In this document: positions 7,177-35,698 of the stretch, piece after piece
Position numbering within the stretch: the stretch's first letter is position 1
Layout of the letters: each line of letters begins with the position of its first letter
Assembly (NCBI GenBank): GCA_025454395.1
Contig: JALOOM010000033.1
Coordinates: forward strand, 1-43,580
Direction: 5' to 3'
Origin: Elainella sp. Prado103
Lineage (GTDB): Bacteria; Cyanobacteriota; Cyanobacteriia; Elainellales; Elainellaceae
Length of the DNA stretch: 43,580 bases
The notes under the pieces: model-generated
Told to the model about the DNA's origin: nothing
The model's database searches: none
The model's input: only the letters and a program-made list of their open reading frames with translations
Made by a program: the position numbers and the translations under genes

Positions 7177-7190
7177 GAATGAACGTTAAA

Positions 7191-7259
7191 TTACTGGCAA
7201 AAAATTACTGGCAGAAAATTACTGGCAGAAAATTACTGGCAGAAAATTACTGGCGAAAA
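7191..7259. repeat. 14-bp tandem array, 5 copies
   Basis: The unit TTACTGGCAGAAAA begins at 7191, 7205, 7219, 7233 and 7247 with only one or two substitutions. It begins 15 bp after the aminotransferase stop codon. Confidence 0.9.
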
Positions 7260-29320: not shown

Positions 29321-30343
29321 ATGACGACTCGTTTTCTCTCCCTCCCCCTGGATCGCCTGACGGAAGCCACCTCGATCGCCCTGGCCCAACAAATTCAGCT
29401 CGCTGAGGTTCAAACTCCCTTAAGTCCAGTTCCCATTACGACTGCTTTGGTGCATTGTGATGGGGCTTGTGATGGGGCTTGTGATGGGGATAATGCATCA
29501 GTTTCGACCGCGCAAACTGCGGATGAGCAAACCCCGATCGTGATGCTACACGGTTTTGACAGCTCAGTGTTCGAATTCCGGCGGCTCTTACCGTTGCTGG
29601 CTGCGACGCATCCGGTGTGGGCGATCGATCTGCTGGGGTTTGGCTTTACTGATCGATCGATCGATTTGGCCTTTAGTCCTGCGGCGATTAAAACCCACCT
29701 GTATTACACCTGGAAAACGCTGATCGGCAAACCGATGGTTTTAGTGGGGGCTTCCATGGGCGGTGCAGCGGCGATCGATTTTGCCCTCAGTTATCCTGAG
29801 GCGGTGCAGCAACTGGTCTTGATCGACAGTGCCGGATTCACGGCTGGGCCAGCCTTAGGCAAATATCTAATTGCGCCCTTAGGCTACTTGGCGACCGCTT
29901 TTTTGCGAAATCTTAAGGTGCGGCAAAATATTAGCCTGAAAGCGTATCATGATCCGAGCTTTGCTTCCCCTGATGCATTGAGTTGTGCAGCCTTGCATCT
30001 CGATCGCATCGGTTGGCGGCAGGCGTTAATTGCCTTTACCCGCAGTGGTGGCTACGGCTCCTTTCAGCAGCAATTGCCCCAGCTCCGGATGCCAACCTTG
30101 ATTGTTTGGGGACGGTGCGATCGAATTTTAGGCACGACCGATGCCGAAAGATTTCAGCAAGCTATCCCAAACAGTCAACTGGTTTGGATTGAAGCCTGTG
30201 GTCATGTGCCCCATTTGGAAAGCCCCCAAACCACTGCCAACCGGATTCTGGAGTTCATTGGTCTGAGCGGAACTGGGATCACCTCAACGCCAATTCGATC
30301 CACTCCAGTCGATCCCCATTCAGCGATCGATCCCAATTCATAG
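29321..30343 (+). CDS. Alpha/beta-fold hydrolase
   Basis: Protein of 340 aa with a complete alpha/beta-hydrolase core: [18 protein letters not shown] (oxyanion region), the nucleophile elbow GASMGGAAA, an acid in [15 protein letters not shown] and the catalytic His in [13 protein letters not shown]. No signal peptide. The substrate is unknown; ester, haloalkane and thioester hydrolases share this scaffold. Residues ~45-60 contain a [12 protein letters not shown] repeat produced by an in-frame 12-bp tandem array, probably a tolerated loop insertion. It lies 66 bp after pyrE and 11 bp before the ParA-type gene, whose ribosome site (GAGGAGG) overlaps its stop. Confidence 0.85.
29459..29489. repeat. 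12-bp tandem repeat in coding sequence, 2.6 copies
   Basis: The unit GATGGGGCTTGT begins at 29459, 29471 and 29483. It inserts Asp-Gly-Ala-Cys tetrapeptides into the hydrolase, and the frame is kept. Confidence 0.88.
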
Positions 30344-30354
30344 AGGAGGTTTGG

Positions 30355-31002
30355 ATGGCCACCGCTTCGCCCAAAGTGATTGCAGTACTCAACGGTAAAG
30401 GGGGGGTTGGCAAAACCACCACTGCGGTTAACTTAGCGGCAGTGCTATCTGAATCCACGTCGGTGTTGCTGGTCGATGCGGATCCACAAGGTTCGGCAAC
30501 CTGGTGGGTGGAGCAAAGCAATATGGGGTTTGATTTAACCCAGGAAACCGATCCCCAATTGTTGAAGCAATTGCGTGAGGTCAATCACTATCCGGTGATT
30601 ATTGTTGATATGCCACCTGCCCTCGATTCTCGCTCCCTCAGTGCTGTGATACCAGCGGCAGATTACTTGCTGCTGCCCACTCCACCAGCAGCCATGGATC
30701 TCTCTGCTTTGATTGAGACGATCAAACGCACGGTGTTGCCAGCGGGCATTCGGCATCGGGTATTAATTAGTCGAGTCGATCCGCGTAGTCAAACGGATGC
30801 CATTGATGCTCAAACCACCCTGACCGAGTTAGGCATTCCCGTCTGTCAAACCTTCGTCCGATCCTATAAAGCCCATGAACGAGCGGCTTTGGAGCGAGTC
30901 TCCATTTTGCAATGGCGCGGCAGAAATGCCAAAGAGGCTCAAGCAGACTATCGCAAAGTTGCTGCTGAAGTCGCACAGGATTTGAGCGATGATAGAAAGT
31001 AG
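30355..31002 (+). CDS. ParA/MinD-type ATPase, probable carboxysome-positioning McdA (type 2)
   Basis: ParA-family ATPase of 215 aa with the deviant Walker A motif KGGVGKTT (Lys15 signature, Lys20), Walker A' region [13 protein letters not shown] and Walker [15 protein letters not shown]. No N-terminal DNA-binding domain and no parB or parS-like gene nearby, which argues against a plasmid partition locus. The following gene encodes a coiled-coil protein with features described for McdB: a basic start with RKRLSDLLREE and a Trp within the last four residues. ParA-type McdA uses McdB to space carboxysomes on the nucleoid. Assignment is by gene pair and motifs from memory, not by alignment. A strong GAGGAGG ribosome site precedes the ATG. 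Confidence 0.78.
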
Positions 31003-31020
31003 AAGCTAGGAGGGGATGTC

Positions 31021-31878
31021 ATGGCGAGGAAGCGATTGTCAGATTTACTCAGAGAGGAAGGACAAAAGCCAGAAAAATCCCCTGATTTGCCTACCGATCT
31101 CCCATCCGCTGATTCTGCCCAAGATACCGATCCGATCGAACCTGTGATCGCGGTTGAGGCGGAATTGCTCGAACCGCCAGCGACCCCTGTAGCCGATTTT
31201 GTGGATGATTTACGCCAAGCGACGGAGCCAGAAGGGGCTGATCTCTCCAGTTCCGATCGGGCAGATTTATCCCAGTCCACCCGGATCGCTGAATTAGAAC
31301 ATCAATTGACTGAATTGGCGCATCAATTAGCTGATGCTCAGTCCGCCCTGGTTGCTCAAAAACGGACTGCCCAAAACAAAGAAGCCGACCTCCAGGAGCT
31401 GATTGCCAACCTAGAAGCCAAAATTGCGCATCAAGCCGAAGAGATGCAACAGTGGCAGGCGGAATTGCAAGCGGAGGCAGCGCAAGCCAAGCAAACTGCC
31501 AAACAACTGCAAGCTGAACTGGAGGATGCGCGACAAACGATTTTGCAACTCTCGCAAGCCAATGCTAAACCGACCCCGCGCGTGATTGAATCGCCTCGAG
31601 CTGCTGAACCAGAGTTAGAACCCAGCAAACATCAACTCGTCTTACCCAGTCGCCCGATCGGTACCCCCCGCCCTGCCAGCCCTAGCTTTCCGAGCCAACC
31701 GGCTGCCTCCCAGCCCGTCCCTGCCTCCGATCGCCCCCCGGTGCATCAGTTAGCCCTGCGGAAAATGCTCGATCACCCGACTCAACCTGGTTCTCTCCCG
31801 CCTATGCCGTCGGAGCCTCGTCCACCTCAACCCGAAACCGTGAAATTAACTGAAACTGATGTGGGTTGGATGGATTAG
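31021..31878 (+). CDS. Coiled-coil protein, probable McdB (type 2) carboxysome-positioning partner
   Basis: Protein of 285 aa. It begins MARKRLSDLLREEGQKPEKS (basic motif), then has an acidic, probably disordered segment (residues ~20-90). A long Gln/Ala/Glu-rich coiled coil follows (~90-185; DLQELIANLEAKIAHQAEEM and similar), and then a Pro/Ser-rich C-terminal third. It ends in DVGWMD with Trp third from last. Basic N-terminus, Gln-rich coiled coil and terminal Trp together match the description of type 2 McdB proteins, which self-associate, bind carboxysomes and stimulate McdA. It lies 18 bp after the ParA-type gene with a strong AGGAGG ribosome site. The alternative is another ParA-partner adaptor. 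Confidence 0.72.
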   Translation: MARKRLSDLLREEGQKPEKSPDLPTDLPSADSAQDTDPIEPVIAVEAELLEPPATPVADFVDDLRQATEPEGADLSSSDRADLSQSTRIAELEHQLTELAHQLADAQSALVAQKRTAQNKEADLQELIANLEAKIAHQAEEMQQWQAELQAEAAQAKQTAKQLQAELEDARQTILQLSQANAKPTPRVIESPRAAEPELEPSKHQLVLPSRPIGTPRPASPSFPSQPAASQPVPASDRPPVHQLALRKMLDHPTQPGSLPPMPSEPRPPQPETVKLTETDVGWMD

Positions 31879-31964
31879 GGGGCGATTGATGCAGATCCAG
31901 TTCGCTGGATCGGGATTTCTAGCTGAGCGACGGTTCCAATTGTTCGATCCTATTGATCCTCAAG

Positions 31965-32028
31965 CAGAGTTTGAGCCAGGACAGAGTTTGAGCCAGAGCA
32001 GAGTTTGAGCCAGGACAGAGTTTGAGCC
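31965..32028. repeat. 17-bp tandem array, 4 copies
   Basis: The unit CAGAGTTTGAGCCAGGA begins at 31965, 31982, 31999 and 32016 with one or two substitutions. Confidence 0.9.
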
Positions 32029-34240: not shown

Positions 34241-35698
34241 ATGAGTTTCGATTCGTTGTTGTTGGAACCAGTCATATTCGATCCAAGTCTGTGGGGATCG
34301 CCTCTTTTAGCAGAAACCCTAGAGTCCGAGACCAGCCCATTGGTATTAGCCAGCGTTTTGTTGAGTTTGGCCGTAGTATATCTAGCTAGCAAACTAGGGG
34401 GTGAACTCTGTGCGCGGATCGATCTGCCGCCAGTTTTAGGGGAACTGGTTGGGGGTGTAGTGGTTGGCATCTCGGCACTCCGTCTGCTGATGTTTGCAGA
34501 AGCCGGTGAGGATGGCAGTCATTCGGTGATCATGCAGCTTTTGCAGGTTACGGCCCACATGTCTCCTGCGGCTTTCAGCCATGTGTTTACGGCCCAAAGC
34601 GAAGTGCTCTCGGTACTGGCAGAGATGGGAGTTGTGGTACTGCTGTTTGAGATCGGGCTAGAGTCTGATCTGGCTGAACTCCTGAAAGTGGGGATTCAAT
34701 CCACTGTTGTCGCTGTAATCGGCGTGGTTACTCCGTTTTTGTTGGGCACGGTTGGGTTGATGACGCTATTTCACGTTCCAGCGATCCCAGCCATTTTTGC
34801 TGGAGCCGCCCTCACTGCGACTAGCATTGGCATCACAGCGAAAGTGCTGGCAGAAATTCAAAAGCTCTCAACTCGCGAAGGGCAAATTATCGTCGGAGCG
34901 GCCGTTATTGATGATGTGTTGGGCATTATTGTGCTAGCGGTGGTTGCTGGTTTGGCCAGAGATGGGCAAATTGTTGTGAAAGATGTGGCTTTTTTAATCG
35001 TGAGTGCCGCTGTGTTTTTTGTCGCGGCGATCGGGCTAGGTCGGCTCCTAAACCCTTTGTTCATCGAAATGGTCAACCAGATGAAAACTCGCGGGCAGGT
35101 GTTGTTGTCAGCTTTGTTTTTCACCCTGATCCTGTCTTACATCTCAGATATTATCCACCTGGAAGCGATTTTGGGAGCATTTGCGGCTGGACTGGTGCTG
35201 GCTGAAACGGAAAAGCGAGAAGAATTACAATCACAAATTGCCCCGGTTGCCGATGTGTTGGTACCCGTATTTTTTGTATTGGTGGGGGCTCGCACTGATG
35301 TCAGTGTGCTGAATCCCTTTGAGCCAGCTAATTGGGAAGGGCTAATTATTGCATCTTTCCTGATTGTGGTCGCGATCGTGGGTAAGCTGGTTACTGGGTT
35401 AGGCGTATTTGGGCAACCGGGGATCAATCGTTTGGCGATCGGGGTGGGAATGGTGCCTCGGGGTGAAGTGGGTCTGGTATTTGCAGCGATCGGAGCAGCC
35501 ACCGGAGCCCTCAGCGATTCACTCAATGCGGCCATTATTGTCATGGTGATTCTGACCACCTTCGTTGCCCCTCCCCTCCTCCGACTGACCTTTGCGGTTG
35601 GGCAGGCTGAGGCTGCAACTGAACCGATCGCAACTGAACCGATCGCAACTGAACCGATCGCAACTGAACCGATCGCAACCAATCCAGAGCAAAGCTAA
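34241..35698 (+). CDS. CPA2-family cation/proton antiporter
   Basis: Integral membrane protein of 485 aa with about twelve to thirteen hydrophobic segments. The paired acidic residues Asp224-Asp225 in AAVIDDVLGIIVLAVVAG are the ion-binding signature of electrogenic CPA2 exchangers (NapA-type). Other family blocks are SKLGGELCARIDLPPVLGEL at the N-terminus, LFEIGLESDLAELLKVG, and GMVPRGEVGLVFAAIG near the end. No C-terminal TrkA-N domain. The C-terminus carries four ATEPI repeats made by a 15-bp tandem array. Expected role: Na+ or K+ exchange against protons at the plasma or thylakoid membrane; the exact ion is not known. AAAGGAA precedes the ATG. Confidence 0.9.
   Translation: MSFDSLLLEPVIFDPSLWGSPLLAETLESETSPLVLASVLLSLAVVYLASKLGGELCARIDLPPVLGELVGGVVVGISALRLLMFAEAGEDGSHSVIMQLLQVTAHMSPAAFSHVFTAQSEVLSVLAEMGVVVLLFEIGLESDLAELLKVGIQSTVVAVIGVVTPFLLGTVGLMTLFHVPAIPAIFAGAALTATSIGITAKVLAEIQKLSTREGQIIVGAAVIDDVLGIIVLAVVAGLARDGQIVVKDVAFLIVSAAVFFVAAIGLGRLLNPLFIEMVNQMKTRGQVLLSALFFTLILSYISDIIHLEAILGAFAAGLVLAETEKREELQSQIAPVADVLVPVFFVLVGARTDVSVLNPFEPANWEGLIIASFLIVVAIVGKLVTGLGVFGQPGINRLAIGVGMVPRGEVGLVFAAIGAATGALSDSLNAAIIVMVILTTFVAPPLLRLTFAVGQAEAATEPIATEPIATEPIATEPIATNPEQS
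35615..35674. repeat. 15-bp tandem array in coding sequence, 4 perfect copies
   Basis: GCAACTGAACCGATC is repeated four times at the 3' end of the antiporter gene (35615, 35630, 35645, 35660). It encodes Ala-Thr-Glu-Pro-Ile in each copy. Each unit junction also creates a CGATCG, the HIP1 core. Confidence 0.95.

Follow-up and report, generated by a model that had tools for sequence, protein, structure and literature searches.

A probable beta-McdAB type 2 carboxysome-positioning pair in Elainella sp. Prado103, and an N-terminal McdB segment likely to dock on McdA

McdAB carboxysome-positioning systems are a known class and are spread over many beta-cyanobacteria. The beta-McdB type 2 of PCC 7002 is found to be a dimer (PMC8262871), the C-terminal Trp has a demonstrated role in other McdBs (PMC11321042), and the basic residues of S. 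elongatus McdB are reported to act in condensate formation (PMC10554743). Orphan McdBs in cyanobacteria have already been reported in PMC8406218, which cites a 2020 survey. A literature search, conducted mostly at title level and on papers other than the 2020 survey itself, returned no statement on loss of the McdB N-terminus or on a link to plasmids.

Based on PMC6328274, PMC12204374, and PMC10554743, a pair of this class would work as follows, all biochemical steps being transferred from S. elongatus and H. neapolitanus. McdA would bind ATP, dimerise, and coat the nucleoid. McdB would anchor on the carboxysome shell via its C-terminal Trp/acidic motif and self-associate via its coiled coil, and its N-terminal KRLSDLLREE segment would dock on the McdA dimer and free McdA from DNA. 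Carboxysomes would then drift up the McdA gradient, resulting in even spacing. The present analysis covers a gene pair, its sequence features and their conservation, its genome context, the pattern of McdA loss in relatives, and an N-terminus shared with plasmid partners.

The pair lies in a 43,580-nucleotide stretch of DNA, referred to as the window, that is contig C143 of a cyanobacterial genome assembled into 157 contigs with a total of 5.84 Mb. With a probability of roughly 90%, the pair is a beta-McdAB type 2 carboxysome-positioning system, because it combines the signature lysine, the lack of an extension, an mcdB just downstream, a basic N-terminus, a central coiled coil rich in Gln, and a terminal Trp. 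The defining features of the type are taken from PMC8262871 and PMC11321042. The initial annotation, made from the letters of the window, had arrived at the same reading, and every sequence feature of the type that could be tested is present. It had described an ATPase with the motif KGGVGKTT, an 18 bp gap, and a second protein with a basic RKRLSDLLREE start, a Gln-rich coiled coil, and a Trp third from the C-terminus. All of these were recovered: the motif starts at residue 15, 18 nt separate the two open reading frames (ORFs), the predicted long helix holds 19 Gln in 102 residues, and Trp283 of 285 lies in the end LTETDVGWMD. Its remarks on the surroundings also agree with what was found. 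No ParB stands beside the pair in the ORFs read, the ParA that is linked to a real ParB being another gene on contig C21, and both the alpha/beta hydrolase and, preceding it, pyrE are found upstream of the pair.

Table 1. Coordinates of the pair, its sequence features, and the adjoining hydrolase gene in the window.
Feature	Position	Strand	Basis or remark
Alpha/beta hydrolase	29321..30343	+	Ends 11 nt upstream of mcdA; homologue between mcdB and ccmK3-ccmK4 in some Nostocales
mcdA, ParA-type ATPase, 215 aa (probable beta-McdA type 2)	30355..31002	+	Orthologues across the class; belongs to the 96/94 group
Deviant Walker A KGGVGKTT with signature lysine, residues 15-22	30397..30420	+	Invariant in 14 aligned orthologues
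mcdB, adaptor protein, 285 aa (probable beta-McdB type 2)	31021..31878	+	Met1 and Trp283 sole invariants in 46 aligned McdBs (alignment A4; rows mostly chosen by Trp-ended ORF, Trp invariance partly by construction)
Candidate McdA-docking segment RKRLSDLLREE, residues 3-13	31027..31059	+	Seen with McdA, mostly lost without McdA, shared with plasmid ParA partners
Predicted coiled coil/long helix, residues 81-182, 19 Gln	31261..31566	+	Long helix of the AF2 model, not output of a coiled-coil predictor; pLDDT ~97 over most of it
C-terminal motif TDVGWMD, presumed carboxysome-binding	31855..31875	+	Conservation of the Trp end

Nearly the whole ATPase can be aligned with ParAs of ParF size (~205-214 residues), and the mid-protein extension of type 1 is absent. 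Its AF2 model has a ParA/ParF fold (mean pLDDT 77.5) and is closest to the solved structures 3cwq (a Synechocystis ParA) and ParF, the solved Cyanothece McdA ranking 14th. The entry 3cwq, which is also the best PDB sequence match, was considered as an McdA structure and rejected, as the ParB-linked ParA on C21 fits it better (140 versus 96 bits). The ATPase has one close match in its own genome. A ParA-like ATPase is also encoded on contig C51 (L042:5640-6284); VirC1 is among its Pfam matches, it has no obvious partner, and it adjoins an apparent pentapeptide-repeat protein.

McdB starts with the basic sequence MARKRLSDLLREE (in longer form MARKRLSDLLREEGQK) and is poorly conserved overall, with a mean column identity of 15%. 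In its AF2 model (pTM 0.41), residues 6-14 form a short helix of low confidence (pLDDT ~66) and residues 280-283 a turn. Naming the protein by NCBIfam, Pfam, or PHROGs was abandoned since only weak coiled-coil matches were obtained, and the Pfam search returned no DNA-binding match.

The genome encodes a beta-carboxysome: ccm shell genes are present on C75 (ccmK2-K1-L-M-N-O in a row) and C99 (ccmK3-K4) and the single RbcL match of the genome is on C55. BMC-domain matches fall on C75 and C99, and the ccm gene names were given by reading translations. The initial annotation had called for a search for these genes and had placed the pair away from Rubisco and ccm genes; the window's contig indeed has no BMC-domain or RbcL match, and by gene position the mcdAB pair is unlinked to carboxysome genes. 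Promoter and terminator scans gave results at chance level. Short tandem repeats, for the most part 11-18 bp in unit size, are numerous in the window (1-43580; for example, 7188-7259, 31963-32028, and 35615-35679). One tandem array directly follows mcdB, and another codes for the terminal (ATEPI)n of a cation-antiporter-like protein.

Among 36 genomes of the window's order, 25 gave an McdB match at 1e-3 with a single-sequence query, two of them spurious (L035, L036), and 33 gave some ParA match at 1e-20, the orthologues being set off from the other matches by their 63-82% identity. The class was sampled with 289 genomes, each at least 95% complete. An McdA match at E <= 1e-35 is present in 159 of these and an McdB profile match at 1e-3 in 153; some of the weakest profile matches are coiled coils hit by chance. 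Family f2, which its small genome size suggests to be alpha-cyanobacterial, has 51 genomes in the sample and contributes to neither set; PMC8262871 likewise reports alpha-cyanobacteria without these genes. Several McdB candidates were dropped as chance matches: L035/G022, L036/G020, L059/G272 (OmpA-like), L314, L315, and the profile matches of G062 and G075, which are far from their McdA. L312/G112 was not counted as it has no terminal Trp.

A partner with both the start motif and the Trp is encoded no more than 700 nt downstream of McdA in 57 of 65 loci hand-picked from the class McdA match list, and in 75 of the best 80 named loci out of 431 confirmed; the count uses the best-scoring ORF after McdA, and the two sets share some genomes. 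Picosynechococcus sp. PCC 7117 (L128) is one of the loci with such a partner. The eight exceptions among the 65 comprise L096, in which the motif lies behind a non-ATG start, L098, which is cut by a contig end, and six McdA orthologues without an adjoining McdB (L101, L103, L120, L122, L123, L125). The five exceptions among the best 80 are an assembly gap and four Microcystis loci without an adjoining McdB (L157, L165, L169, L170). The McdB of such McdA-only loci may be elsewhere or missing.

Carboxysome neighbours were searched for in 194 loci. Nine carboxysome queries gave no match within 3 kb in 75 of the best 80 named loci. In the other five (Amazonocrinis, Mojavia, two Komarekiella, and Nostoc sp. 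B), ccmK3-ccmK4 is found within 3 kb, and the order is mcdAB, then a close homologue of the alpha/beta hydrolase, then ccmK3-ccmK4. As this homologue stands beside the shell genes in relatives, the window's neighbourhood connects with them. In L123, mcdA adjoins ccmM-ccmN, and in the McdA-less loci L050, L305, and L308, the hydrolase gene and ccmK3 adjoin mcdB. An mcdAB much like the cyanobacterial ones is also present in L141, a record titled Candidatus Gracilibacteria that is possibly a mislabelled or mixed metagenome bin.

Plasmids carry related pairs. Of 53 plasmid records with a match, nine were examined. The proteins right after McdA-like ParAs begin like McdB on three Thermus plasmids, an Oscillatoria plasmid, three Nostoc plasmids, and a Geminocystis plasmid, as well as on contig C18 of genome G010, where the ParA adjoins a replication initiator; on the ninth plasmid (Arthrobacter), the partner is partly alike only. 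The Thermus partners begin with the kind of segment KRLAELVREE, and the starts across the whole set read KRKRLAELVREE, KRRRLSDVV, ARRRLSDLVHEETQK, ARKKNLSNLIGEA, and VKRRLSDLV. At their C-terminal end, the plasmid-type partners have a common domain around PKYLTYVRKE..GERITENTLIRWAVDLLL, which is absent from the window's McdB. A ribbon-helix-helix name for this domain, suggested by likeness to the eye, was rejected for want of Pfam support. To assess how common the start is, mechanical ORFs of at least 120 aa in the examined loci served as background, those ending in the Trp motif being set aside: the strict motif occurs within the first 20 residues of 8 of 791, namely two cut McdBs, five plasmid ParA partners, and one chance case. 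In locus L067, an ordinary ParB stands beside the ParA. Two Nostoc plasmids (pNe_2 and pNOS3756_2; L344, L345) encode a partner in which a long repetitive linker, TEQQTS..VTDLQTSEVTKS-like, joins the docking segment to the C-terminal domain.

McdBs also occur in genomes without an McdA orthologue. Thirty such genomes were scored, in which ParA matches (E <= 1e-8) spanning the ATPase domain reach no more than 38% identity; shorter matches are found in G253 (a 49-residue Walker A stretch at 53%) and G114 (88 residues at 41%). Of the 30, 22 have lost the LSDLL(R)EE segment and kept the Trp end, and the other eight, all of family f30, retain the segment. Segment-less McdBs start, for example, with MVRRRSTGSTDS, MVRKRGSHLSSS, and MATQRQRKTPAQNGK. 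Residues 1-8 hold on average 2.7 K/R (range 1-4) in 21 motif-less McdBs, 3.0 in 14 McdBs of the window's order that have McdA, and 2.4 in seven f30 keepers. The LIVMF content of residues 5-16, on the other hand, averages 0.7 in the motif-less proteins versus 3.1 and 3.3 in the latter two sets. A Trp-ended ORF follows McdA in 157 of 169 McdA-bearing loci, and each of these ORFs has the segment. (In L075 and L119 a longer neighbour gene was picked at first; the McdBs there have the segment and are included in the 157.) In the draft genome G012, which belongs to the genus of the window, the two genes lie on separate contigs and McdB keeps the segment; therefore, the presence of McdA, rather than adjacency, may be what counts.

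A search of all frames in the 240 nt preceding 20 motif-less orphan McdBs revealed no hidden motif, and a search of 28 orphan loci gave no mcdA remnant, L300 and L310 lying outside these tests. The McdB-like ORF of L310 (G060, McdA-less) is 562 aa long, far above the usual length, and ends SELGWFD. Two genomes were rejected as McdA-less: G291, because of two McdA fragments, one of them at the edge of a contig, and G097, because of an McdA stretch (55% over 96 residues) beside its McdB. G017 has an McdB without McdA and stands outside the 30 scored genomes, as its N-terminus is not visible. G098 (L313), also unscored, encodes a motif-bearing, Trp-containing McdB-like protein and has no McdA match at 1e-8, with a 2e-5 ParA match in the locus; if the protein is a true McdB, it is a further exception to the loss rule. 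G116 was initially taken as the lone exception; a wider search revealed a whole exception group, and the loss rule is weakened thereby.

Loss events were counted on a tree built from the SecA of 78 genomes: 53 that have McdA, 18 that lack both McdA and the motif, and seven that lack McdA and have the motif. The 53 were chosen because the motif had already been seen in them, and the 157 of 169 locus count serves as the unselected check. McdA presence changes nine times on the tree, six changes being forced by well-supported branches; McdA has been lost several times. The motif changes seven times, five of these forced for the motif-less group. Of the 25 McdA-less tree genomes, 18 keep basic first residues and the terminal Trp but have lost the segment, and the seven keepers are close kin. 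Independent pairs on supported branches gave five differences of the motif in the same direction, none opposite, and one pair without a difference (two-sided p 0.0625); an earlier 76-genome tree gave the same 5:0:1. The tree is of a quick kind, and the long branches of G228, G117, and G060 are unsurely placed. Left off it were the unscored G020, G022, G213, G150, G185, G046, and G031, as well as G018, which has a broken SecA; scored orphans outside the tree are G016, G242, G250, and G162 (motif lost) and G151 (kept). The seven keepers (G116, G229, and five genomes of genus g89) stand together with the McdA-bearing G206, and G116 has no McdA-like ParA at E <= 1e-8. The five g89 genomes, counted as kept, have LSNLI instead of LSDLI. 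Segments in the McdA-less f30 keepers (L050, L298, L301, L304-L308) read LTELL, LTDLL, LADLI, and LSNLI. These keepers are real exceptions, due to either recent McdA loss or another use of the motif.

How far the identification holds depends on what else the pair could be. The ATPase is ~61-62% identical to the Thermus plasmid ParAs and 57% to the McdA of Picosynechococcus PCC 7117, and its best NCBIfam family, ParA_partition, scores below the cut-off (121 versus 180 bits). Taken by itself, the ATPase resembles Thermus plasmid ParAs as closely in sequence as it does many McdAs and does not prove the case, and it is the partner and the tree that carry the identification. The initial annotation had named best matches to plasmid ParA families as evidence against itself. 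Such matches do exist at the level given above, but the chromosomal McdAs group apart from them: in a 39-row tree, 26 chromosomal McdAs form one group versus 13 plasmid-type and other ParAs with support 96/94, the very long outgroup branches leaving root and direction of descent unsure. Moreover, the partner lacks the plasmid C-terminal domain and ends in the McdB Trp motif, the chromosomal neighbours are conserved, no replication gene was noticed by eye in the ORFs at 25-37 kb, and no DNA-binding ParB or centromere-binding partner, the mark of ParAB, was found beside the ATPase gene. It is hardly credible, then, that the pair is a plasmid or integrated-plasmid partition pair (ParA and a small centromere-binding protein) unrelated to carboxysomes. 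Only marginally more credible, and still very improbable, is that it positions another cargo such as a storage granule, a chemotaxis array, or the division site. The assignment of cargo does rest on comparison, and the pair is unlinked to ccm genes in its own genome; however, in every feature tested the partner agrees with McdB, ccmK3-ccmK4 or ccmM-ccmN stands beside the pair in some relatives, and family f2 yields no match.

If the pair is accepted as beta-McdAB type 2, the loss pattern bears on the function of the McdB start. The N-terminal segment, and not charge alone, is likely the ParA dock, as judged by comparative sequence evidence: it is lost in most McdA-less lineages while the basic residues stay, and it is common to plasmid ParA partners. 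The basic residues kept in orphans fit the condensate role reported for S. elongatus McdB in PMC10554743. One could argue instead that the segment is no McdA dock and is lost by chance as McdBs evolve rapidly. The low overall conservation of McdB, the eight f30 genomes that keep the segment, and the modest statistics of the loss pattern (paired test 5:0:1, p 0.06) all allow for this. Against it, all 157 Trp-ended ORFs after McdA have the segment while the rest of the chain varies, and the segment recurs in plasmid ParA partners. Chance decay is thus unlikely, though a less distant prospect than either of the alternatives for the pair as a whole.

The comparative result on the docking segment, together with the plasmid link, is the part that is worth the attention of specialists. 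The repeated losses of McdA constitute a natural experiment in which the basic residues mostly stay and the amphipathic segment mostly goes, and the contact between McdA and beta-McdB is thereby made directly testable. Because plasmid partners share the start segment but end in a DNA-binding-like domain, type 2 resembles a partition module with a swapped cargo end. We regard it as an even bet that type 2 McdAB arose from a plasmid-partition module, in which the ParA and the [KR]xLSDL[LV]RE dock were kept and the DNA-binding half was exchanged for a coiled coil and a shell-binding Trp. In that scenario, McdA would recognise the segment rather than the charge, and upon McdA loss the segment would usually decay while charge and Trp stay, so that orphan McdBs would keep an McdA-independent carboxysome job. 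If true, this would be a route for re-aiming a DNA-partition motor at a protein organelle.

Among known systems, the closest is beta-McdAB type 2 of Synechococcus sp. PCC 7002 (reviewed in PMC8262871). No essential difference from it was seen, in a comparison made with Picosynechococcus PCC 7117, presumably of the same genus, in place of the PCC 7002 record. The likeness consists of the signature lysine, the lack of a mid-protein extension, and mcdB just downstream; it extends to the basic N-terminus, the central coiled coil, the C-terminal Trp, and a beta-carboxysome host. Type 1 McdAB of S. elongatus PCC 7942 shares the inferred job and the C-terminal Trp. Its McdA is without the signature lysine and has a mid-protein extension, as described in PMC8262871, whereas the window's McdA has the lysine and is 215 aa long. 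In the alpha-McdAB of Halothiobacillus, the alpha-McdB is a disordered monomer without a coiled coil (PMC8262871), unlike the window's McdB. The Thermus, Nostoc, and Oscillatoria plasmid ParAs with their small partners are alike in the ATPase, which is up to ~62% identical, and in the kind of partner start, and ParF of TP228 is a solved relative. The C-terminal half of the plasmid partner is a conserved domain, by eye ribbon-helix-helix-like, and in its place the window's McdB has the predicted coiled coil and the Trp.
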